Source: Melioribacteraceae bacterium
GTDB taxonomy: Bacteria > Bacteroidota > Ignavibacteria > Ignavibacteriales > Melioribacteraceae
Direction of reading: 5' to 3'
Assembly (NCBI GenBank): GCA_027030245.1
Contig: JALVFE010000016.1
Span: 372,001 to 436,000, forward strand
DNA length: 64,000 nucleotides
The notes below the pieces were generated by a model that was not told the DNA's origin, searched no databases, and worked only from the letters and a program-made list of their open reading frames with translations. The translations under genes were made by a program, and so were the position numbers. Positions 1,309-12,838 of this stretch are shown piece by piece; the first letter of the stretch is position 1, and each line of letters starts with the position of its first letter.

Positions 1309-2778
1309 ATGGAATCCGCTTCCGCACTTTCCGTTCATGCAAATATCTATACGCTTCTTTCTTTCATTGCTTATATATTATTGATATTGGGCATTGGAAT
1401 TTACAGCGCTAAATTTTCATCGAAGGGATTAGGCGAGTTTTTTCTTGGCGGAAGGAGCATGAACAAATTCGTAGTTGCTCTTAGCGCCGTTGCGTCGGGA
1501 AGAAGCAGTTGGTTGTTAATCGGTTTTACGGGAATGGCATTCGTAAAAGGCGCTTCGGCAATTTGGGCTGCTGCGGGTTACGTAACGGTGGAATTTTTGA
1601 TGTTTCTCTATGCGGCACCAAAACTCCGCAAGCAAACCGAAGTTAAAAATGATATTACCATTCCGGATTATTTCGAATCGAGATTTAACGACAAATCCCA
1701 CATTCTCCGTTTAATTTCTTCAATTATAATTATTGTTTTTATGACTGCATACATCAGCGCTCAGTTCGTCGGAGGAGGAAAAGCTTTTGCTTCAAGTTTC
1801 GGAACATCCAATTCAACGGGAATAATTTTAACCGCACTCATCGTTTTAATCTATACGATGCTCGGCGGATTCCTTGCGGTTTCCCTTACCGATGTTATTC
1901 AAGCTTTCTTCATGCTGTTCGCTTTGTTTGTTCTGCCCGTAATTACAATTATCAATTTCGGCGGATGGGAAAAAGTTATGCAAGCGGTTAGTAATATAAA
2001 TCCGGAGTTGCTTGACCCTTTTGCGATCGGAACCGGTGCATTAATCGGTTTTCTTGGAATTGGATTGGGTTCACCGGGAAATCCGCATATTTTGGTTAGA
2101 TATATGTCAATCAAAGACCCTTCCGAATTAAAATTCAGCGCTTACGTCGGAACCTTCTGGAATGCAACAATGGCTTTTGCGGCGGTAATAATCGGAATAG
2201 CCGGAAGAGCATACTTCCCTACTGCAGCTTCCCTTCCGGGCGGCGATGCGGAAAATCTTTATCCTTTTTTGGCTCAAACGCATTTACACCCCGTTTTGTT
2301 CGGAATTGTTATCGCTTCAATTTTAGCGGCAATTATGTCAACCGCCGATTCTATGCTACTGGTAAGTGCTTCTGCGGTTATTAGGGATATTTATCAAAAA
2401 ATTATAAATCCGCACCGTAAATTTTCTCAAAACGAACTTGTGTTTTATAGCCGCATAATTATTTTGTTAATTGTTATTTTCGCTTTGGCGTTCGGGTATT
2501 TTGCATCCGATTTGGTATTTTGGCTTGTTCTGTTTGCTTGGGGCGGACTCGGTGCGGCATTCGGTCCTACAATTTTACTTTCACTTTTCTGGGATAAAAC
2601 AACCAAACAAGGAGTGCTCACCGGCTTCATAGTCGGCGTTTTAACAATAATCATCTGGAAACAAACACCGGAATTAAAATCTATTATTTATGAATTGGTT
2701 CCGGGCTTTTTCTTGTCATTAATTTTTACGGTAATTGTTAGTCTGCTTACCGCAAAAGATAAGCAAACGGAAGCTTAA
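1309..2778 (+). CDS. Sodium:solute symporter family (SSS/PutP-like) transporter
   Basis: The 489-residue polytopic membrane protein has about 13 hydrophobic segments. Family marks are the early GLGEFFLGGRSMNKFVVALSA region, GYVTVEFLMFLYAAPKLRKQ, DYFESRF and the GxxxSTADSMLL-type sequence in TM8 (IMSTADSMLLVSASAVIRDIY), which carries the Na2-site serine/threonine residues. Overall it resembles the PutP proline/sodium symporter group. The substrate cannot be fixed from sequence; proline or another small organic acid is plausible. The gene stands alone after the repeat element, and its end overlaps the convergent TetR gene by 4 bp. Confidence 0.9.
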   Translation: MESASALSVHANIYTLLSFIAYILLILGIGIYSAKFSSKGLGEFFLGGRSMNKFVVALSAVASGRSSWLLIGFTGMAFVKGASAIWAAAGYVTVEFLMFLYAAPKLRKQTEVKNDITIPDYFESRFNDKSHILRLISSIIIIVFMTAYISAQFVGGGKAFASSFGTSNSTGIILTALIVLIYTMLGGFLAVSLTDVIQAFFMLFALFVLPVITIINFGGWEKVMQAVSNINPELLDPFAIGTGALIGFLGIGLGSPGNPHILVRYMSIKDPSELKFSAYVGTFWNATMAFAAVIIGIAGRAYFPTAASLPGGDAENLYPFLAQTHLHPVLFGIVIASILAAIMSTADSMLLVSASAVIRDIYQKIINPHRKFSQNELVFYSRIIILLIVIFALAFGYFASDLVFWLVLFAWGGLGAAFGPTILLSLFWDKTTKQGVLTGFIVGVLTIIIWKQTPELKSIIYELVPGFFLSLIFTVIVSLLTAKDKQTEA

Positions 2779-3374
2779 AGCGAATTATTTTTTAAGGATT
2801 CTTTACTATACTTTTTAAGGATTAATCGTTCCACGCTTTTAAGCGGATAGTTTTCTTTGTCGAGAAGATAATCGATGGAAACACCGTCGAACAATGCGCC
2901 GAGTAAATACGCTTCGGCTTTTGCGTTTTTAATTCCGATTTTACGGAAAAGCTTTTCTACTTTATCAATATAACCTTTCTCCAAATCTTTAAAAATTTTA
3001 CTCATTTTCGGAGTAATTTCCGCTTGGAAACTGAACGAAACGTATAACCGCCAGAATTCTTCGTTTCTTCGTAAATGATTAAACGTTTCCTTTATCAGAA
3101 TTTCCATGATTTTGTAAGGGTCTTCTTCCATCTTAAAAAGCGCGTCGAATTCATCAAGAAATTCAAGCGCCATTAATAAGATTGCTTCGGCGAGTTCGTC
3201 TTTGCTTTTAAAATAGTTATATGCCAGACCCTTGCTTATTCCCGCTTCTTTGGCAATATCGGCTATTGAAGTTCCGTGATATCCTTTCCTGGCAAATAAT
3301 TTCAAGCCTGCATTAAGGATATTCCTTTTGGTCTTTTCCCTTATTTCTTTAAACTGTTCTTTGGTTCTGGGCAT
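2775..3374 (-). CDS. TetR/AcrR family transcriptional repressor
   Basis: The 199-residue protein has an N-terminal TetR helix-turn-helix (about residues 12-58): KRNILNAGLKLFARKGYHGTSIADIAKEAGISKGLAYNYFKSK. The C-terminal ligand domain is variable, as usual. It is divergent from the LolA/ABC operon that begins at 3531. The divergent gap holds two similar 18-bp operator candidates, one next to this gene's start and one at the operon promoter. It is therefore very likely an autoregulated local repressor of that operon. The ligand is unknown. The 3' end overlaps the symporter gene by 4 bp. Confidence 0.92.
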   Translation of the reverse strand: MPRTKEQFKEIREKTKRNILNAGLKLFARKGYHGTSIADIAKEAGISKGLAYNYFKSKDELAEAILLMALEFLDEFDALFKMEEDPYKIMEILIKETFNHLRRNEEFWRLYVSFSFQAEITPKMSKIFKDLEKGYIDKVEKLFRKIGIKNAKAEAYLLGALFDGVSIDYLLDKENYPLKSVERLILKKYSKESLKNNSL

Positions 3375-3380
3375 ATTTAT

Positions 3381-3398
3381 TGATTAAATGTTCAGTCA
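3381..3398 (-). promoter_or_regulatory. TetR operator candidate O1, next to the tetR start
   Basis: The minus-strand sequence is TGACTGAACATTTAATCA, an imperfect dyad (TGAnT...AnTCA). It matches the operator candidate at 3496-3513 at 15 of 18 positions and begins 7 bp upstream of the TetR ATG, where bound protein would block its own expression. Confidence 0.6.
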
Positions 3399-3495: not shown

Positions 3496-3513
3496 TGACT
3501 GACCGTTTAGTCA
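3496..3513 (+). promoter_or_regulatory. TetR operator candidate O2, at the export operon promoter
   Basis: TGACTGACCGTTTAGTCA is a dyad with TGACT...AGTCA arms. It begins one base after the -10 region at 3489-3494 and covers the likely transcription start. With its near copy at 3381-3398 it suggests one repressor controls both divergent units. Confidence 0.65.
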
Positions 3514-3530: not shown

Positions 3531-4274
3531 ATGAAAAATATCAAACTGCTTGCCGTCTTCTTTTTCTTATTCACCATGTTACGCGCTCAAACCGCTGAGG
3601 AAATTGTCCGTAAAGCGGAAAATACTTTAAAAGGGAAAACAGCTTACGGCATTGTGGAAATGACCGTTATTACACCCGATTACGAAAGAACTTTGAAAAT
3701 GGAAAGCTGGTGGGTCGGGAACGAAAAAGCTCTTATAATTATCAAATCGCCGAGACGGGAACGGGGTAATAAAACTCTTAAAATCGGCAACGAAATGTGG
3801 AATTATCTTAAAAACACCGAAACCGTTATTAAAATTCCCCCTTCGATGATGCTTCAATCGTGGAACGGCTCGGATTTCACCAACGACGATTTGGTAAGGG
3901 AATCGAATCTTGTAAAAGATTACACGCAAAAAATTGTTGCCGAAGAAAAAATAAGCGGCGCCGACTGTTGGAAAATCGAATTGACGCCAAAACCCGACGC
4001 GCCCGTTGTTTGGGGTAAAATTTATTATTGGGTACGCAAATCGGATTACCTTCCCGCACTCGTTCAATATTACGACGAAAACGGAAAGCTAATCAGATAT
4101 ATGGAATTCTCCGATATAAAAAAAATGAACGGAAGAAAAATTCCTACAAAATGGAAAATGGTAAGCGTTGTTAACGAAGGTCATTCGACCGAATTGAAAA
4201 TAATAGATATGAAATTTGACATAAAAATCGACGACAGTATCTTTTCGTTCGAAGAACTTGAGCGCGGTGATTAA
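3531..4274 (+). CDS. LolA-like outer membrane lipoprotein-sorting protein
   Basis: The 247-residue protein has a signal peptide (about residues 1-19, ending LRAQ) and then a LolA-like fold of the PF17131 type. Supporting features are a MESWWVGNEKALI strand, PRRERGNKTLKIGNEMWNY, the IPPSMMLQSWNGSDFTNDDLV loop and the late YMEFSDIKKMNGRKIPTKW region. Such proteins are periplasmic carriers of lipidated or hydrophobic cargo. It is first in a six-gene operon; the next start, for an FtsX permease, lies 3 bp downstream. It probably takes cargo from the ABC complex to the outer membrane. It is a dedicated carrier, distinct from housekeeping LolA. Confidence 0.85.
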   Translation: MKNIKLLAVFFFLFTMLRAQTAEEIVRKAENTLKGKTAYGIVEMTVITPDYERTLKMESWWVGNEKALIIIKSPRRERGNKTLKIGNEMWNYLKNTETVIKIPPSMMLQSWNGSDFTNDDLVRESNLVKDYTQKIVAEEKISGADCWKIELTPKPDAPVVWGKIYYWVRKSDYLPALVQYYDENGKLIRYMEFSDIKKMNGRKIPTKWKMVSVVNEGHSTELKIIDMKFDIKIDDSIFSFEELERGD

Positions 4275-4277
4275 AGT

Positions 4278-5510
4278 ATGAAACTTTTGGTAAAATTGGC
4301 ATGGAGAAATATTTGGAGAAATAAACGGCGGTCGTTTCTTACCCTTTTGGCAATTGTATTTGCCACCACTGCCGCAATTGCAACACGTGGAATGCAATTG
4401 GGAACATACGCCGTAAATATTAACTACGCTGTTCAAATGTTTACGGGTTATCTGCAAATCCAAAAAGAAGGTTTTCAAGAAAACCCTTCGCTAAATAAAG
4501 CTTTCAAAATAAACAACAAACTTAAAACCGCCCTTAGTTCTATTGACGAAATTAAAAGTTGGGCGCCGCGAGTTCAAGCCGACGGATTAATTAGTTTCAA
4601 AGATAACTCACAAGGTGCGGCAATTTTCGGTTTAAGTCCACAAAAAGAAAAAACAACAACCAGAATTTTCTCCCGGCTTAAACAAGGAAATTTTTTCGAA
4701 AGCGATACTTCGGATAAAATCGTTCTTGGACATAAACTTCTTCAAAACTTAAAAGCGGAAATCGGTGATACAGTTGTTATTCTTTCACAGGGGTTCGACG
4801 GTTCGCTCGGCAATAATAAATATGTAATCTCCGGAATCATCAAATTCGGCTCTCCCGATTTGGACGGAATGGGCGTTTTCATGCCGGTTAAATCCGCCCA
4901 AGAACTTCTTGCGCTTTACGGCGGCAGAATCCACTCTATTGCAATAAACCTTAAAAGCTCATACAAGATTGAGGAAACCAAAAAAATTCTTCAAGAAAAG
5001 CTGAAAGGAACCGGCTTGGCTGTTTTGGATTGGGGTGAAATTATGCCAGACTTCAAACAAGCAATTGAGTTGGATAATATAAGCGGAATTTTGATGTTGT
5101 TGATTTTAATGGTAATTGTCGCCTTCGGAATACTCAACACGGTTTTAATGTCCGTCACCGAAAGATTCAAAGAGTTCGGAGTTGCGCTGGCAATCGGTAT
5201 GTCTCACACAAAACTTGTTTTGCTCGTAATTATCGAAACCGTTTTCCTTTCACTTACCGGAATATTTACCGGCAATATTTTAGGATATTTAACGAATTGG
5301 TATTTCGTAAACAACCCGATACACTTTTCGGGAGACATAAGTAATTTATATGAAGAATACGGTTTTCTGCCGGTTATCCGCTCAACACTTGAACCAATGA
5401 TTTTCGTAAATATTTCGCTTGCCGTGTTATTGATTTCTTTATTTGTGAGCCTTTACCCCGTTTACAAAGTTTATAAACTCGAGCCGCTCAAAGGAATCAG
5501 ATATACATAA
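4278..5510 (+). CDS. FtsX/LolC-E type ABC transporter permease (first of two)
   Basis: The 410-residue protein has one N-terminal TM helix (about 20-38) after MKLLVKLAWRNIWRNKRRS, a large periplasmic MacB-type domain and three C-terminal TM helices (about 265-400), ending in PLKGIRYT. This is the LolC/LolE/MacB arrangement used for extraction of lipoproteins or other periplasm-facing substrates. Its start repeats almost exactly in the second permease at 6227 (KLAWRNIWRNKRRS), so the two are paralogues and probably form a heterodimer served by the ATPase at 7460. Confidence 0.9.
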   Translation: MKLLVKLAWRNIWRNKRRSFLTLLAIVFATTAAIATRGMQLGTYAVNINYAVQMFTGYLQIQKEGFQENPSLNKAFKINNKLKTALSSIDEIKSWAPRVQADGLISFKDNSQGAAIFGLSPQKEKTTTRIFSRLKQGNFFESDTSDKIVLGHKLLQNLKAEIGDTVVILSQGFDGSLGNNKYVISGIIKFGSPDLDGMGVFMPVKSAQELLALYGGRIHSIAINLKSSYKIEETKKILQEKLKGTGLAVLDWGEIMPDFKQAIELDNISGILMLLILMVIVAFGILNTVLMSVTERFKEFGVALAIGMSHTKLVLLVIIETVFLSLTGIFTGNILGYLTNWYFVNNPIHFSGDISNLYEEYGFLPVIRSTLEPMIFVNISLAVLLISLFVSLYPVYKVYKLEPLKGIRYT

Positions 5511-5527
5511 AACTCGGAGATAACAAT

Positions 5528-6178
5528 ATGGAAATTTTATATAGAGAATTTAACGAAAGTAAAATTAATAACAATTACAAGAGAGTAGCTTTCTTTTATG
5601 ATATATGGAGTTGGCTGACAGAAAGTAAAGCCGCCAAGAAGGTAATTGAATTAGCCGGAGTTAAAAACGGTGAATCGGTTTTGGAAGTTGCGTGCGGCAC
5701 CGGAGTTCTCTTCGAAAAAATAGTTAAGCAAAATCCGGACGGCATTAACGTCGGCGTGGATTTAACCCCGGCAATGCTTGAGAAAGCAAAACAAAGATTA
5801 CAAAAATTAAAAAACCATAATTTCGAATTGAAAAGAGGTAACGCACTAAATCTTGAATTCGATGATAATTCTTTCGACTTGGTGACAAATAATTTTATGA
5901 TAGATCTTATGCCGGAAAATACTTTTGACACAATAGCCAAAGAATTTTACAGGGTTCTCAAACCAGGTGGCAGATTGGTAATTTCGGTTTTTTCCTTCGG
6001 AACAAAAAAAGTAAATAAAATTTGGCATTGGGTTGCCAAAAACTTTCCGGAACTTTTAACCGGATGCCGTCCGGTTTCCTTTACACAAAATTTAATTAAT
6101 GCGGGATTTAAAATCGACAAGGATATTCATGTAAGTCAAAATACTTTTCCCGCGGAAGTAATAAGAGCAATAAAATAA
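5528..6178 (+). CDS. Class I SAM-dependent methyltransferase (UbiE-like)
   Basis: The 216-residue protein has a Rossmann methyltransferase domain. Motif I is VLEVACGTGVLFEKI (about residues 52-66), the acidic ribose-binding residue lies in NVGVDLTPAMLEKAK, motif II is NSFDLVTNNFMIDLMP, and motif III is LKPGGRLVISVF. The closest general family is Methyltransf_11/25, as in UbiE/COQ5 and small-molecule or lipid methyltransferases. It lies between the two permease genes in the same direction, with 17- and 48-bp gaps, which suggests that it modifies the transported cargo or a linked lipid. The substrate is not known. Confidence 0.88.
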   Translation: MEILYREFNESKINNNYKRVAFFYDIWSWLTESKAAKKVIELAGVKNGESVLEVACGTGVLFEKIVKQNPDGINVGVDLTPAMLEKAKQRLQKLKNHNFELKRGNALNLEFDDNSFDLVTNNFMIDLMPENTFDTIAKEFYRVLKPGGRLVISVFSFGTKKVNKIWHWVAKNFPELLTGCRPVSFTQNLINAGFKIDKDIHVSQNTFPAEVIRAIK

Positions 6179-6226
6179 ATTAAGCAGAATAATTATTAAA
6201 ATTTTAAATCATACGGGAAAACCAAA

Positions 6227-7441
6227 TTGCTTCTGAAACTTGCTTGGCGAAATATCTGGCGGAATAAAAGACGTTCGATGATAGTTATCGGTTCGGTGAT
6301 GGTTGGTGTAATTGCATTAATTATCATCGACGGATTAAACAACGGTTTTCTTTCGCAAATGCTTTTCAATCAAGTTGACTTAAATATATCCCATGTTCAA
6401 ATTCACAAACGCGGCTTCCACGATAACAAAGTCGTGCAAAGTTTCATCCCCGATAAAAAAAAGGTGGAAAAGATTCTCAGAAAAAACGGCAAAATAAAAC
6501 ATTTCAGCGAACGTGTGGTTTCTTTCGGATTAGTCAGTTCCGCCGTTAGTTCTTCGGGCGTTTTTATACTGGGAATTAATCCCGAGGACGAATCCAAAAT
6601 TACGACAGTTTCCAAATCGATAATTAAAGGAAAATATTTTAACGGGAAAGGAAGGGAAATTGTAATCGGTAGTAAACTTGCAGAAAAACTTAAAGTGGAT
6701 TTGGGCGGAAAAGTAATTGCTTTGGCAAACAGACCGGACGGCTCAATTGGCTCGGAAGTTTTCCGCATTGTAGGAATATTCCGGTCTCCAAGTTCAAATT
6801 TTGACAAAACATATATTTTTGTACCGATTAAAACCCTTCAGCGAATGTTGGGAATCGGGAATAATATTCACGAGTTCGCAATCGTTACACAAAATTACAA
6901 TCTTGCGGAAACCGTTAGAGATGAAATAAAACAAGAACTAAGCGATAAATATGAAGTTTTGTCTTATCATGATATACTTCCCCTTCTCATAATGCAAATG
7001 GATTTGTACAAGGAAACAATGTATATTATCAACATGATAATCGGTCTGGCACTTATTTTCGGAATTATCAATTCAATGCTGATGGCGGTTTTCGAACGTG
7101 TTAATGAAATCGGGGTATTAATGGCAATCGGTATGAAAAACGGGAAGATTTTCTCCATGATTTTATTAGAATCTTTATTAATTGGAATTGTCGGTACCGT
7201 ATTCGGTGTGTTTATCGGTTTGGGATTGAATGAAATTTTATCGGTGCAAGGCATAGATTTCAGCTTGTTTTCTAAGAGTCTTGAATCGTGGGGAATCGGG
7301 GCGGTTATTTATCCGCATTTATCATTAGAAAACTTGATAACCACGTTTCTGATGATTCCGTTTATCACAATGTTGGGAGCAATCTATCCCGCATGGAAAG
7401 CAATTAAACTCGAGCCGGTTGCTGCAATTCGTTATGTATAA
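6227..7441 (+). CDS. FtsX/LolC-E type ABC transporter permease (second of two)
   Basis: The 404-residue protein has the same plan as the permease at 4278: one TM (about 18-36), a periplasmic MacB-like domain, three C-terminal TMs and an ending EPVAAIRYV. The start is TTG (LLLKLAWRN), with GGGA eight bases upstream; there is no in-frame ATG at a better place. It is probably the second half of a LolCE-like heterodimer. The gap to the ATPase gene is 18 bp. Confidence 0.9.
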   Translation: MLLKLAWRNIWRNKRRSMIVIGSVMVGVIALIIIDGLNNGFLSQMLFNQVDLNISHVQIHKRGFHDNKVVQSFIPDKKKVEKILRKNGKIKHFSERVVSFGLVSSAVSSSGVFILGINPEDESKITTVSKSIIKGKYFNGKGREIVIGSKLAEKLKVDLGGKVIALANRPDGSIGSEVFRIVGIFRSPSSNFDKTYIFVPIKTLQRMLGIGNNIHEFAIVTQNYNLAETVRDEIKQELSDKYEVLSYHDILPLLIMQMDLYKETMYIINMIIGLALIFGIINSMLMAVFERVNEIGVLMAIGMKNGKIFSMILLESLLIGIVGTVFGVFIGLGLNEILSVQGIDFSLFSKSLESWGIGAVIYPHLSLENLITTFLMIPFITMLGAIYPAWKAIKLEPVAAIRYV

Positions 7442-7459
7442 CAAAAGTATAAGAAGAAA

Positions 7460-8137
7460 ATGGAAATTTTAAGAACCGAAAACGTAAACAAAATTTACCG
7501 GGATAACGGAGTTCCCGTTCAAGCGCTGAAAGATATCAACTTAAAAATATCCAAAGGCGAATATTTAGTAATCGCCGGTCCTTCGGGCTCCGGTAAAACC
7601 ACTTTGCTCAATTTACTCGGCACTTTGGATAAACCTACATCCGGAAAAATATTTTTTGAAAATTCAGATTACACTTCTAAAAACAGAAAAGAGCTTTCGG
7701 AATTCCGTTTGCGAAAACTCGGATTCGTTTTCCAGGCTTATAATTTAATTCCCGTACTAACGGCATTGGAAAACATAGAATTCAGCATGATGCTGTTGGG
7801 CATTCCCGAAAAAGAAAGACGGGAAAGAGCAATGAACCTAATGGCGGAATTAGGAATCGATGATCTTGCGGATAAGAAACCGAACGAAATGAGCGGTGGT
7901 CAACAACAACGCGTAGCCGTTGCAAGAGCTATCGTGAATAATCCGTTAATAGTTTTAGCCGATGAACCGACTGCAAATCTCGATTCTGCCAACGGAAGCA
8001 AGTTATTGGATTTAATGGAAAAAATGAACGAAGAGAAAAACATTACGTTTATATTTTCTTCCCACGATAAGCAAGTAATTGAACGGGCGAAGAGACTAAT
8101 TATTTTGAAAGACGGGCAAATAGTAAATGAAAATTAA
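7460..8137 (+). CDS. ABC transporter ATP-binding protein, LolD/MacB type
   Basis: The 225-residue ATPase has all ABC motifs: Walker A GPSGSGKTTLLNLLG (about 40-54), Q-loop QAYNLIPVLTALEN, signature MSGGQQQRVAVARA, Walker B LIVLADEPTANLDS and the switch His in FSSHDKQ. Length and sequence fit the LolD/MacB/FtsE group, which powers FtsX-type permeases. The last 11 bp overlap the beta-barrel gene, indicating translational coupling. Confidence 0.94.
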   Translation: MEILRTENVNKIYRDNGVPVQALKDINLKISKGEYLVIAGPSGSGKTTLLNLLGTLDKPTSGKIFFENSDYTSKNRKELSEFRLRKLGFVFQAYNLIPVLTALENIEFSMMLLGIPEKERRERAMNLMAELGIDDLADKKPNEMSGGQQQRVAVARAIVNNPLIVLADEPTANLDSANGSKLLDLMEKMNEEKNITFIFSSHDKQVIERAKRLIILKDGQIVNEN

Positions 8138-9287
8138 ACTTTTCATCATTCCGGTTTTGTTTGCCATTGTTTTCAATTGCGAAACACCCGCCCAGCCCGG
8201 TTTCGATTTTTCCGGTTATGCTCAAAACTTTACCGTTTATCAAACCATACCACAAAGTCTGAGCGAAATTTTTCATAGTGATAAATCTTTTATTACGGAC
8301 TTGTTAAGAATAAGACTTAAGCCCGTTATATTTTTGTGGCACGGAGGAAGACTAAACATCGATTATGAATTAAACGTAAATTATTTCAACCGGAAATTTA
8401 TTTACGAAAATTTAAGCGTGACAACCAATAGACGGACTGTTACTTCTTTATTTTGGTCGCCCGTTAACGAAGATAAAATTAAAATCAATCATTTTATAGA
8501 CAGGTTATATTTTAGGCAAAAACTCGCCTTCGGAAATATCAAAATAGGAAGACAGCGCATAGCTTGGGGAACCGGAAGAATTTGGAATTCGACAGATCTG
8601 TTTAACCCGATAAATCCCGCCGCATATTACCTGATAGAAAAACCCGGCGCCGATGCGGTTTCGGCAAAAATCCGTTTCGGAAATTTTACCGACTTGAACA
8701 TTGTTTACAATCCCGTTGATAATTTTAACAAGTATAATTTTGGCGGAAGATTCAGAACAAACTTTTTGGGATACGACTTTTCAATAATGGGCGGGCGATT
8801 CGACGAAAAGACGATTGTTGGATTAGATTTTGCCGGAAACATTTTCGATGCCGGATTTCGGGGCGAAGGGATTTACTCAATTGATCCCGATAATTCCGGA
8901 AATAATTTCCTGAAGTTCATAGTAGGAATAGATTATCAATTTACACCCAAATTATACATGCTTGCCGAATACCATTTTAACGGGGAAGGTAAAACGGATA
9001 AATACCATTACGAATTCTCACGCTTGCTTCACGGAGAAATTCAAAACGTGAGCAGAAATTATCTTGCCGTAAGCGGAATGTACGAACTTACTCCATTGCT
9101 TTTATTAAACGCTCTGTCAATTTTTAACTTGAATGATAACAGCGGTTTCATTAGTGTAAGCGGAAATTATTCCGTTACGGAAAACTTTTATGTAAACTTA
9201 GGCACTCAAATTTTTTGGGGCGAAAAATTGTCCGAATATTGGTTTTTCCCCGATTCCTATTACATTCAGACCGAATATTATTTCTGA
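8127..9287 (+). CDS. Outer-membrane beta-barrel protein linked to the ABC export operon
   Basis: The 386-residue protein has a signal peptide (about 1-22, ending TPAQ). The rest is amphipathic strands rich in aromatic residues (for example LNIDYELNVNYF, LRIRLKPVIFLW) and a C-terminal aromatic strand ending EYYF. The IGRQRIAWGTGRIWNSTDLFNPINP segment recalls the DUF1302/alginate-export-like porins. It overlaps the ATPase gene by 11 bp, so it is the last gene of the TetR-controlled operon. It may act as an outer-membrane receiver or channel in place of LolB. The family assignment is tentative. Confidence 0.72.
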   Translation: MKIKLFIIPVLFAIVFNCETPAQPGFDFSGYAQNFTVYQTIPQSLSEIFHSDKSFITDLLRIRLKPVIFLWHGGRLNIDYELNVNYFNRKFIYENLSVTTNRRTVTSLFWSPVNEDKIKINHFIDRLYFRQKLAFGNIKIGRQRIAWGTGRIWNSTDLFNPINPAAYYLIEKPGADAVSAKIRFGNFTDLNIVYNPVDNFNKYNFGGRFRTNFLGYDFSIMGGRFDEKTIVGLDFAGNIFDAGFRGEGIYSIDPDNSGNNFLKFIVGIDYQFTPKLYMLAEYHFNGEGKTDKYHYEFSRLLHGEIQNVSRNYLAVSGMYELTPLLLLNALSIFNLNDNSGFISVSGNYSVTENFYVNLGTQIFWGEKLSEYWFFPDSYYIQTEYYF

Positions 9288-9353: not shown

Positions 9354-9578
9354 ATGAGACAAGAAGAAATTAATATGAATGCATTGCAGTATGAACTTCC
9401 GAGAATTAAAAAACTTTTGAAGAACGGGAATGAAATAATTATCAAAGATTCCAACAAACCGATTGCAATTATTTCGCCCGTTAACAAAAGTAAATTGCTA
9501 AACAAACAAAACAAAGACAAAGTAAATTTACCCTACGGAAGTTATGAAAACACTGCAAGCGAAATTTGGTTCGGTTAA
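9354..9578 (+). CDS. Phd/YefM-like antitoxin, without a recognised toxin
   Basis: The 74-residue protein has the short Phd/YefM-type pattern: an N-terminal helix, then a KNGNEIIIKDSNKPIAIISPV strand-turn-strand like the usual GEEVIItkrGKPIA motif. GAGAGGG lies just upstream of the ATG at 9354; a second in-frame ATG at 9375 is possible. In this family such proteins bind DNA and neutralise a PIN or RelE/YoeB-like toxin. No toxin ORF follows in the next 342 bases. It may be a remnant, or may act with a toxin elsewhere. Confidence 0.6.
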   Translation: MRQEEINMNALQYELPRIKKLLKNGNEIIIKDSNKPIAIISPVNKSKLLNKQNKDKVNLPYGSYENTASEIWFG

Positions 9579-11683: not shown

Positions 11684-12838
11684 ATGAAAACTACTGTTGC
11701 CGATGCAATTGGAATTGCACTAAAAAATCTTAATGTTTCTGTTGTAACAAACGTACCCGGTTACGGCGCAAGCGAAGCTTATAAAAGTTACGCTTTACAT
11801 AATCAAAAAATGCCGGTCTTATCTTTTCACGAAGAAGTAGCTTTTTCCGTTGCTCATGGTGCGGCACTTACCGGTAAACGTTCGGCTTCATTAATGAAAG
11901 CGCAAGGTTTTGTAAAAGCCGGTAATGCGGCTGTAGATTCATTGTATACGTCGATCTCAGCAGGAATGGTAATATTAATTTTCGAAGATCTTACAGGCAG
12001 ACATTCCGACAACATAATGGAAATCGAACCGATTCTACACGGCATGTCATTTCCGTATAAAAGGGCAAAACCGGATACCCTTTATGATGATTTGGTAAAC
12101 TGTTTCCGGGAATCGGAAACCAGAAAACTGCCTTACGCTTTGTTGATAAATGCAGACGAGATAAATACGGAAATTGAGTTTAACCCTAAAACTTTTCCGG
12201 AAGAAAAAAAGAGATTCACACGCAATATTTTCGATCAAGTAGTTCATCCCCTTTTGGCGGATTATCAATACAAAGTTTTCACTACAAAAAAAATAACATC
12301 GGATTTTTCAAATATTGCTTTGCCTAAAACTCCTGTTTTCCCTGACGATTTTCCTTTAAGATATAAACAAGGAGCGCAAAAATATACCGTGCTTTTCGAC
12401 GCATTCAAAAACATACGCGGAGATATTGTAACCGGGGATACAAGCGTTTCCAGCAGTTTTGCTTTCCCGCCGTATAACTCAATCGATTTGGTCACACATT
12501 TAGGTGGAAGCATACCGCTTGCAATTGGCGCTTACCTTGCCGGCTATAAAGATGTTTGGGCTATAACCGGAGATTTCAGTTTTTTAGCTGCTGGCAATCT
12601 TGGTCTAATAGAAGCTTTAGAACGCGAAGTTCCAATTAAAGTGATAATACTGTATAACAAAGAAGCCGGCGCAACGGGCGGACAGAAAATCCACAAGAAA
12701 ATTATGCTCAGGATATTAGCCGGTTATGAAAATTTCATCAAGCATATATCCGACCCGCAAGACATTATGGAAGTTGTTTCCGTATTGGAAGAAGCCAAAA
12801 ACGCGGATGAATTGAGAATAATTATTGCGGATTATTAA
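11684..12838 (+). CDS. Thiamine pyrophosphate-dependent enzyme, IorA/decarboxylase-like
   Basis: The 384-residue protein has a PYR-type domain (about 1-165, with SFHEEVAFSVAHGAALTGKRSA, where the Glu in HEEVA is the likely TPP-activating residue) and a PP domain (about 245-384). The latter has GGSIPLAIGAYLAG, the GDFSFLAAG motif and, downstream, YNKEAGATGG. The closest plan is indolepyruvate:ferredoxin oxidoreductase alpha (IorA) or phosphonopyruvate/sulfopyruvate decarboxylases. The C-terminal ferredoxin Cys clusters of IorA are absent, so non-oxidative decarboxylation is more likely than ferredoxin reduction. GGGG precedes the ATG at good spacing. The cupin gene starts 3 bp downstream. Confidence 0.8.
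   Translation: MKTTVADAIGIALKNLNVSVVTNVPGYGASEAYKSYALHNQKMPVLSFHEEVAFSVAHGAALTGKRSASLMKAQGFVKAGNAAVDSLYTSISAGMVILIFEDLTGRHSDNIMEIEPILHGMSFPYKRAKPDTLYDDLVNCFRESETRKLPYALLINADEINTEIEFNPKTFPEEKKRFTRNIFDQVVHPLLADYQYKVFTTKKITSDFSNIALPKTPVFPDDFPLRYKQGAQKYTVLFDAFKNIRGDIVTGDTSVSSSFAFPPYNSIDLVTHLGGSIPLAIGAYLAGYKDVWAITGDFSFLAAGNLGLIEALEREVPIKVIILYNKEAGATGGQKIHKKIMLRILAGYENFIKHISDPQDIMEVVSVLEEAKNADELRIIIADY

Follow-up and report, generated by a model that had tools for sequence, protein, structure and literature searches.

What do a LolA-like carrier, two FtsX-type permeases, a LolD-like ATPase and a predicted outer-membrane barrel, encoded together beside a TetR gene, move across the cell envelope, and in which direction? 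The locus lies in the window, that is, the whole stretch of 64,000 nucleotides that was analysed (Melioribacteraceae bacterium, assembly GCA_027030245.1, contig JALVFE010000016.1, positions 372,001 to 436,000). An earlier note on this DNA had read it as six co-directional genes with short gaps or overlaps, under a TetR operator. Coordinates and Pfam families confirm this layout: all six genes are on the plus strand, separated from A to F by 3, 17, 48 and 18 bp and then by an 11-bp overlap of E and F, and the tetR gene diverges from them. The operon is real, and its features are as follows.

2775 to 3374, minus strand: tetR, TetR-family repressor gene, 199 aa (TetR_N, E 2.2e-19; TetR_C_6, 1.3e-6), diverging from the cassette
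3381 to 3398, no strand: second operator-like palindrome TGATTAAATGTTCAGTCA, differing from the conserved motif at 2-3 positions, adjoining the tetR start
3496 to 3513, no strand: operator-like palindrome TGACTGACCGTTTAGTCA, matching the conserved motif at every position, with its end 17 bp upstream of the carrier gene
3531 to 4274, plus strand: gene A, PF17131 LolA-like carrier, 247 aa (PF17131, E 3.5e-60)
4278 to 5510, plus strand: gene B (FtsX1), LolC/E-like permease, 410 aa (FtsX and MacB_PCD)
5528 to 6178, plus strand: gene C, UbiE-type methyltransferase, 216 aa, a lineage-specific insert outside the core
6227 to 7441, plus strand: gene D (FtsX2), LolC/E-like permease, 404 aa, TTG start (FtsX and MacB_PCD)
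7460 to 8137, plus strand: gene E, LolD/MacB-type ABC ATPase, 225 aa (ABC_tran)
8127 to 9287, plus strand: gene F, predicted outer-membrane barrel, 386 aa, C-terminal Phe

Five of the six genes form a conserved accessory cassette

We defined the core as the carrier, the two permeases, the ATPase and the barrel. It is complete in 34 of the 36 loci fetched from the phylum, the remaining 2 being cut by contig ends, and in 52 of the 57 loci of a wider scan that leave space for it; 23 further loci of that scan end early. The core was found in Ralstonia and Vibrio as well, and culturable hosts of the cassette include Natronoflexus pectinivorans (L202) and Fodinibius halophilus (L192). The co-occurrence that the earlier note had wanted checked thus holds for five families, which recur together in many genomes. 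It does not extend to the methyltransferase, which had been counted as a member: none of the 36 phylum loci, 35 of them with both permeases, has a match, and only 1 of the 66 scan loci holding both permeases contains one (L125); a further scan locus, L178, has merely a 16-bit match, elsewhere. The gene is present in one congener (G152) and missing in another (G153), and this, with its absence from nearly all loci, rules it out as a core member. G116 and G172 encode relatives above 60% identity at sites other than the cassette; in G172 the contig is truncated at one side.

The cassette is accessory and not universal: 37 of 148 genomes have a match to the carrier under 1e-50. The carrier also matched 15 plasmid records and the barrel 3; two of the former were opened, and showed a full core in Vibrio and a distant variant in Persicobacter. 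Neither plasmid locus is annotated in its record. The neighbour genes of the cassette loci gave no consistent substrate clue, his-type, CAP-domain and BrkB-family genes each occurring in some lineages, and no additional gene that could be a cargo is shared by most layouts.

The tetR promoter carries a conserved palindrome

The stretch between tetR and the carrier gene holds two copies of one palindrome. The corresponding motif, TGACTGAMCGTTYAGTCA, was derived from the same loci on which it was scored, and occurs with at most 2 mismatches at 38 of 62 TetR promoters (24 lack it) compared to 0 of 1240 shuffles. With at most 3 mismatches, the counts are 49 of 62 and 2 of 1240. Random segments from the same loci, which could overlap the promoter, gave 25 of 1240 at the stricter threshold. 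The promoter loci are partly non-independent (L068/L127 and L077/L179, and L194/L195 by layout). A TetR homologue is found at 18 of 35 core loci. The proposed TetR operator is supported as a predicted site, and the repressor probably binds the palindrome.

The ABC engine resembles LolCDE and stands apart from the housekeeping Lol genes

The AlphaFold2 model of FtsX1 (pLDDT 88) has LolC or LolE as its best nine structural matches (Z 25.5-29.9, rmsd 4.1-5.7). By sequence, LolF and LolE are the nearest solved relatives of FtsX1 and also of FtsX2, so that the LolC/LolE permease fold is assigned from a model for the former and from sequence for the latter. In LolC, the LolA-docking hairpin is the 'Hook'; the matching stretch of FtsX1 in the HMMER alignment contains QGFDG and is about 5 residues shorter than that of LolF. 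In a quick permease tree, built with no bootstrap, a branch with SH-aLRT 100 separates 45 Lol-labelled rows (TIGR02212 loci and their neighbours, restricted to 350-520 aa) from 55 cassette and related rows, and the cassette permeases do not group with housekeeping LolC/LolE. Neither the D rows nor the second ABC type form a clean group there (2 changes each). Judged by eye, the B and D sub-trees have a much alike order of lineages, which fits joint inheritance.

The ATPase has Walker A, signature and Walker B motifs; across the core ATPases, the wider form of the Walker pattern is found in 31 of 35 and the narrow form in 13 of 35. LolD is its best NCBIfam match, under the cut-off. FHHLLP is a LolD motif, and the LolD of the genome itself holds FHHLLPEF. 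The cassette ATPase carries FVFQAYNLIPVL at the position where this LolD has FIFQFHHLLPEF, and HHLLP occurs in none of the 35 core ATPases. The genome holds its own LolA, LolCE and LolD elsewhere. Because of these genes, the separate permease group and the ATPase lacking FHHLLP, we consider the cassette distinct from the housekeeping Lol system. No LolB family is among the Pfam matches of the six proteins. The absence of LolB, to which the earlier note had appealed, is a weak argument, since LolB is divergent in Bacteroidota (PMC11885536).

An engine of this kind could serve a second, dedicated Lol route, in which the ABC transporter would extract a class of lipoproteins, the PF17131 carrier would shuttle them, and the barrel would replace LolB or place them on the surface. 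The permeases speak for such a route, with LolF and LolE as nearest relatives of both and the FtsX1 model closest to LolC/LolE, and some lipoproteins are described as still arriving at the outer membrane when LolA and LolB are missing (PMC11885536). We nevertheless regard it as unlikely. The cassette is accessory and has its own repressor motif, all 35 ATPases lack HHLLP, most layouts share no candidate cargo gene, and PF17131-type carriers adjoin an MMPL pump too. Small lipids are known cargo of MMPL pumps.

The carrier is LolA-like and the barrel is related to RND-linked barrels

The carrier belongs to PF17131, above cut-off, and not to the LolA family PF03548, whose one match in the genome sits elsewhere (C16:249191-249649). 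Its match to DUF1329 is weak (E 0.0038). The carrier alignment shows the conserved block PPSMMxQSWxGSDFTxDDLV, none of the 22 carriers examined has a lipobox-like site, and the solved relatives are 9tp6, 3buu, 4z48 and 3bk5. This family membership bears on a drug or solvent efflux in the sense of MacAB-TolC, in which the carrier would serve as adaptor instead of shuttle. The TetR gene and the MacB_PCD domains would suit such a pump, and the Ame authors, in the sections of PMC6394551 used here, view AmeB and AmeC as possible adaptors. However, the six genes include no MacA-type adaptor and no TolC, and PF17131 is a LolA-like family; this reading is thus improbable.

Gene F alone has no Pfam or NCBIfam match. 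Its AlphaFold2 model (pLDDT 90.1) is a barrel with 18 long strands by our own count, and the structural matches listed, with Z of 21-24, include chitoporin, OprD/Occ and AlgE. As modelled, the fold appears equally near uptake porins (OprD/Occ) and the exporter AlgE. In hhalign comparisons, gene F matched the RND-linked barrels as a set at 99.9% (E 2e-36) and singly at 96.5-99.9%. Three of these (L105, L106 and L113), all over the DUF1302 cut-off, gave 96.5-98.0% each, and the strongest single match (L101, 99.9%) has no DUF1302 match and adjoins a putative RND pump. Controls were reversed, column-shuffled and permease comparisons and, later, OmpF and FadL of E. coli K-12 (0.2% each). Related barrels adjoin PF17131 carriers and RND-type pumps, and two such loci are in the same genome. 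The L105 pump, when scanned, proved to be MMPL; in another tree, L122 was called RND from gene size alone and sits on a very long branch, and its label is unsafe. Compared directly, gene F and a classical 609-aa DUF1302 protein match weakly (19%, E 0.0012). A DUF1302 match at E<=0.01 is found in 1 of 33 cassette barrels; gene F has none at the cut-off, and Ralstonia gene F reaches 19.8 bits against a cut-off of 23.2. Among Pfam matches at E<=0.01, the 33 barrels show no Omp85 family.

The nearness to OprD/Occ (Z 21-24) would also agree with a retrograde or uptake route, in which a hydrophobe enters through the barrel and travels inward on the carrier, or lipid is taken out of the outer membrane, but the six genes include no binding protein of the ABC-importer type and, to our knowledge, all ABC transporters of MacB/LolCDE type with a characterised function work in export or extraction, which makes this the least probable of the readings.

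A possible ATP-driven exporter

We favour, at close to even chances, a TetR-controlled, ATP-driven exporter of a hydrophobe or lipid across the whole envelope, the counterpart of AmeABCD-type, RND-driven exporters. FtsX1, FtsX2 and the ATPase would make up an ABC extractor of LolCDE type (type VII, mechanotransmission), which would draw a hydrophobic or lipid-like molecule out of the inner membrane for transfer to the PF17131 carrier. The carrier would traverse the periplasm with this cargo, and the barrel may take it over, for delivery into the outer membrane or to the exterior. Appearance of some molecule, perhaps a membrane-active one, would make the repressor leave its operator. The cassette would then parallel AmeABCD, with an ABC engine replacing the RND pump.

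This export reading draws on a core conserved as a unit, on permeases whose nearest solved relatives are LolF, LolE and LolC, on a carrier from the LolA-like family PF17131, on a barrel related to those beside PF17131 carriers and RND-type pumps, on the accessory nature of the set with its own repressor motif, and on the ameABCD deletion, after which cells tolerate monoterpenes less well and accumulate more Nile Red (PMC6394551). Several observations weigh against it. Neither cargo nor direction follows from PF17131 and MacB-type folds, the barrel fold is also near OprD/Occ, and no neighbour names a substrate. In the Ame study, the two strains hardly differed in real-time Nile Red efflux (PMC6394551). 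The direct link of the barrel to the classical DUF1302 protein is weak, and another ATPase of the genome (C10) outscores the cassette ATPase on the LolD model (243 against 236 bits).

More broadly, and with more doubt than for the exporter itself, we tentatively propose a general class of trans-envelope exporters of lipids or hydrophobes, in which one carrier-barrel pair (PF17131/DUF1329-type with DUF1302-like) would be driven either by a proton-driven RND/MMPL pump or by an ATP-driven LolCDE-like ABC transporter; the cassette would be the ABC branch and bring along a conserved repressor and operator. Should a hydrophobe be the cargo, the ABC and RND versions would define an exporter class that shares its outer parts and differs in its energy source. 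For Bacteroidota and their neighbours, the cassette bears on the passage through the periplasm of lipids that are neither LPS nor lipoproteins. With a five-gene core and its own repressor, deletion of one gene could switch it on, a handle for finding the load of the carrier.

Comparison with known systems

We found no account of the cassette as one unit in the literature. The dedicated envelope unit of the earlier note stands: it has a carrier, an ATP engine, a barrel and a TetR operator to itself, is distinct from the Lol genes of the cell, and loses the methyltransferase; "undescribed" applies to the whole, similar clusters having been proposed in Borrelia BBJ23-29 and AmeABCD.

With LolCDE-LolA-LolB (and LolF), the cassette shares the LolC/E-type permease fold, LolD as best NCBIfam match of the ATPase and a LolA-like carrier. 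It differs in its PF17131 rather than PF03548 carrier, its barrel, its TetR gene, its separate permease group and its ATPase without HHLLP. In MacAB-TolC, MacA and TolC accompany MacB, and neither is among the six genes.

The following comparisons rest on parts of the cited papers. AmeABCD of Castellaniella defragrans consists of a DUF1302 barrel (AmeA, 605 aa), a DUF1329 LolA-superfamily protein (AmeB), AmeC and an HAE3 RND pump (PMC6394551). Like the cassette, with its predicted barrel and PF17131 carrier, it sets an outer-membrane protein (DUF1302 in its case) and a LolA-superfamily periplasmic protein beside an inner-membrane engine. It differs in that this engine is an HAE3 RND pump, whereas that of the cassette is FtsX/ABC, in the extra AmeC, in the carrier family (DUF1329 against PF17131) and in the barrel, whose direct link is weak. 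For Borrelia BBJ23-29, a cluster that combines a LolA-like carrier with a LolE/MacB-like (LolCDE-like) ABC transporter and a barrel of the outer membrane has already been proposed; that barrel is of Omp85 type, there are two TPR proteins and one permease gene, and the part of the paper concerned mentions no TetR (PMC13078400). The TetR-MMPL operons of Bacteroidota, such as P. gingivalis PG1175-81, share the TetR regulator and a protein annotated as 'outer membrane lipoprotein-sorting protein', but have an MMPL transporter and rise 13- to 136-fold without iron (PMC10434189). Finally, the Aat system of enterobacteria also dedicates a LolC/E-like permease and a LolD-like ATPase to one cargo, and differs from the cassette in its TolC-like AatA, adaptor-type AatB and Lnt-like acyltransferase (PMC7943197).

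Gene organization of the cassette

The earlier note had described six genes as a candidate envelope export system under a TetR operator, and all six were confirmed in place on the + strand. The genome of the window (G000) comprises 3.8 Mb in 40 contigs.

Features of the window
Carrier gene, + strand, family PF17131
Two permease genes, + strand, FtsX and MacB_PCD in each
Methyltransferase gene, + strand, UbiE-type
ATPase gene, + strand, ABC ATPase
Barrel gene, + strand, 386 aa, without Pfam or NCBIfam match
TetR gene, diverging, upstream of the six

Intergenic gaps in the operon are 3, 17, 48, and 18 bp, and the ATPase and barrel genes overlap by 11 bp. Beside the operon, a PutP-like sodium/solute symporter gene is convergent with tetR (4-bp overlap; the pair spans 1309-3374), a neighbor also retained in the congener G153 (L255). 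A 74-aa ORF (9354-9578) resembles by eye a Phd/YefM-type antitoxin and has no Pfam match.

A five-gene core is conserved

Carrier matches at E < 1e-50 were found in 37 of 148 genomes of the phylum, and 36 loci were fetched, leaving out the window's own. Carrier, both permeases, and ATPase occur together in 35 of these, the 36th (L100) being a short contig of 3.7 kb with the carrier alone. Of the 35 loci with both permeases, 34 also encode the barrel; the exception, L093, stops at a contig end, and the genomes of L100 and L093 both have a barrel match on a different contig. A scan of named genomes gave at least 563 carrier relatives. Among the best 80, which were kept, the core is complete in 52, ends early in 23, and is scored incomplete despite sufficient room in five: L132, whose layout looks complete, L152, with one permease gene only, and L164, L169, and L201, where neither ATPase nor barrel is shown.

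Vibrio campbellii (L259) shares the window's gene order across all five core genes. Many of the other phylum labels were given to metagenome bins and could be erroneous. In the two Ralstonia loci (L194, L195), the carrier and ATPase genes, in this order, precede a single 830-aa protein that fuses the two permeases, and the barrel gene comes last. The same layout is seen in Roseateles (L190) and Piscinibacter (L185), except that an unrelated gene of >800 aa, a phosphoketolase in Roseateles, separates carrier from ATPase. Persicobacter (L260:2114-7735) encodes TetR, a weak barrel match, ATPase, two permeases, and carrier, all distant from those of the window.

The methyltransferase (METHYLTRANSFERASE) was detected in 0/35 phylum loci and 1/66 scan loci (L125), counting loci with both permeases. 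It lies inside the cassette of congener G152, whose contig is probably identical to that of L125. Congener G153, with a carrier at 85% identity, gave no match in the cassette or, at 1e-12, in the genome. We therefore reject it as a core member; it represents a lineage-specific insertion that separates the two permeases. Co-occurrence across genomes, proposed for six families, holds for the five-gene core (34/36 phylum loci, 52 of the best 80 scan loci) and fails for the methyltransferase.

Some loci have further neighbors. L081, L083, and L086 (family f23) carry a hisH-like gene upstream of the cassette, with tetR intervening in L083, and the first two a hisA-like gene downstream, the assignments having a Pfam basis for the two L081 genes only. 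Because of these flanking genes, this cassette seems to have landed within a histidine operon.

The cassette is distinct from the housekeeping Lol system

The FtsX1 model (15 rows) has a pLDDT of 88, and its nine best structural rows are all LolC or LolE (Z 25.5-29.9), followed lower down by a Streptococcus exporter (25.4), a heme exporter (22.5), and MacB (17-20). The window ATPase carries Walker A, signature, and Walker B, and our pattern finds all three in 31/35 core ATPases. The genome has a separate LolC/E pair (C22:4454-6890) scoring 276 and 298 bits versus 131 and 160 for the window permeases, and the LolD immediately after it scores 289 bits versus 236 for the window ATPase and 243 for another on contig C10. 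All LolCE and LolD matches fall under the TIGR cut-offs, which are therefore non-discriminating here; it is the permease tree that tells the two apart, parting 45 Lol-labelled permeases from all other rows (branch SH-aLRT 100). The HHLLP motif occurs in 0/35 core ATPases. Whereas the housekeeping system combines a LolD reading FHHLLPEF with a PF03548 LolA, also encoded in this genome, the cassette combines an ATPase reading AYNLIPVL at that place with a PF17131 carrier. The cassette is thus distinct from housekeeping Lol. Downstream of the cassette at locus L099 (8475-10300) stand two more related FtsX permeases, of which the second is cut.

Regulation

A TetR homologue is present at 18/35 core loci. 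At L097 (2468-2974) and L099 (2416-2877), its place ahead of the carrier is taken by a MarR-like gene, an assignment above the Pfam cut-off for L099 and below it for L097. In 62 of the fetched loci, a TetR gene adjoins the carrier; for these, we analyzed the vicinity of the tetR start or the divergent gap. The motif TGACTGAMCGTTYAGTCA occurs without mismatch in 16/62 of these promoters and with ≤2 mismatches in 38/62, versus 0/1240 at either level in Markov shuffles of the same promoters; these counts carry circularity, the motif being taken from the same loci, and redundancy among loci. In the window, a perfect copy, a putative operator that TetR may bind, stands 17 bp upstream of the carrier gene, and a less exact copy adjoins tetR.

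Barrel and carrier link the cassette to RND-type operons

The AlphaFold2 model of the barrel (33 rows; pLDDT 90.1) has 18 strands of ≥8 residues by our count. Among solved structures, its fold comes closest to those of chitoporin, Occ/OprD porins, and AlgE (Z 21.4-23.7, rmsd 3.1-3.9). Profile comparison with six barrels found beside PF17131 carriers and RND-size pumps gave 99.9% (E 2e-36), and four of them compared singly gave 96.5-99.9%, versus 0.2% each for OmpF and FadL and ≤0.3% for reversed, shuffled, and permease controls. Three of four RND-linked barrels scanned exceed the DUF1302 cut-off. A classical 609-aa DUF1302 protein reaches just 19% against the cassette barrel, so the tie to DUF1302 goes via intermediates. 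ATPase and barrel are separated at L150 by a CAP-domain protein gene (12115-12798; Pfam), at the same position in L155, L168, and L175 by ORFs alike by eye in size and start sequence, and at L256 (7436-8681) by genes for an NmrA/epimerase-like protein and a DUF6713 protein.

When 64 PF17131-type carriers were placed in a tree, the cassette's own fell into a single group (97/99), whether the permeases were split or fused. RND-labelled carriers, one pump being scanned as MMPL and the others labelled by size, are parted from ABC-linked carriers at 89/81, and a further ABC-linked type, made up of ATPase, permease (one or two), and carrier, is placed in between with weak support. The tree sorts by engine; carriers therefore follow their engines, the main ground for a tentative reading of the carrier and DUF1302-like barrel as driven by either an RND/MMPL pump or a LolCDE-like ABC unit. 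Elsewhere in the window's genome, two operons each combine a TetR gene with a large pump, a PF17131 carrier, and a DUF1302 barrel (L105:2609-7592, MMPL pump as scanned; L106:4649-9698, 791-aa pump, RND-type by size); they are the RND-type counterpart of the cassette.

Proposed mechanism and comparison with known systems

Our best reading of the observed parts, their conservation, and their homology is that ATP would drive extraction of a hydrophobe or lipid, which the carrier would shuttle and deliver through or into the barrel, the export unit being kept under repressor control. We infer the direction of transport and the handover; cargo and inducer are likewise putative.

Among the matches listed in open-licence full texts, we recognised no description of this cassette, a limited negative, and PMC7565204 is the one paper among them to name PF17131. 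The nearest published systems among those matches are AmeABCD (PMC6394551), Borrelia BBJ23-29 (PMC13078400), Lol in Bacteroidota (PMC11885536), and the iron-regulated TetR-MMPL operons (PMC10434189).
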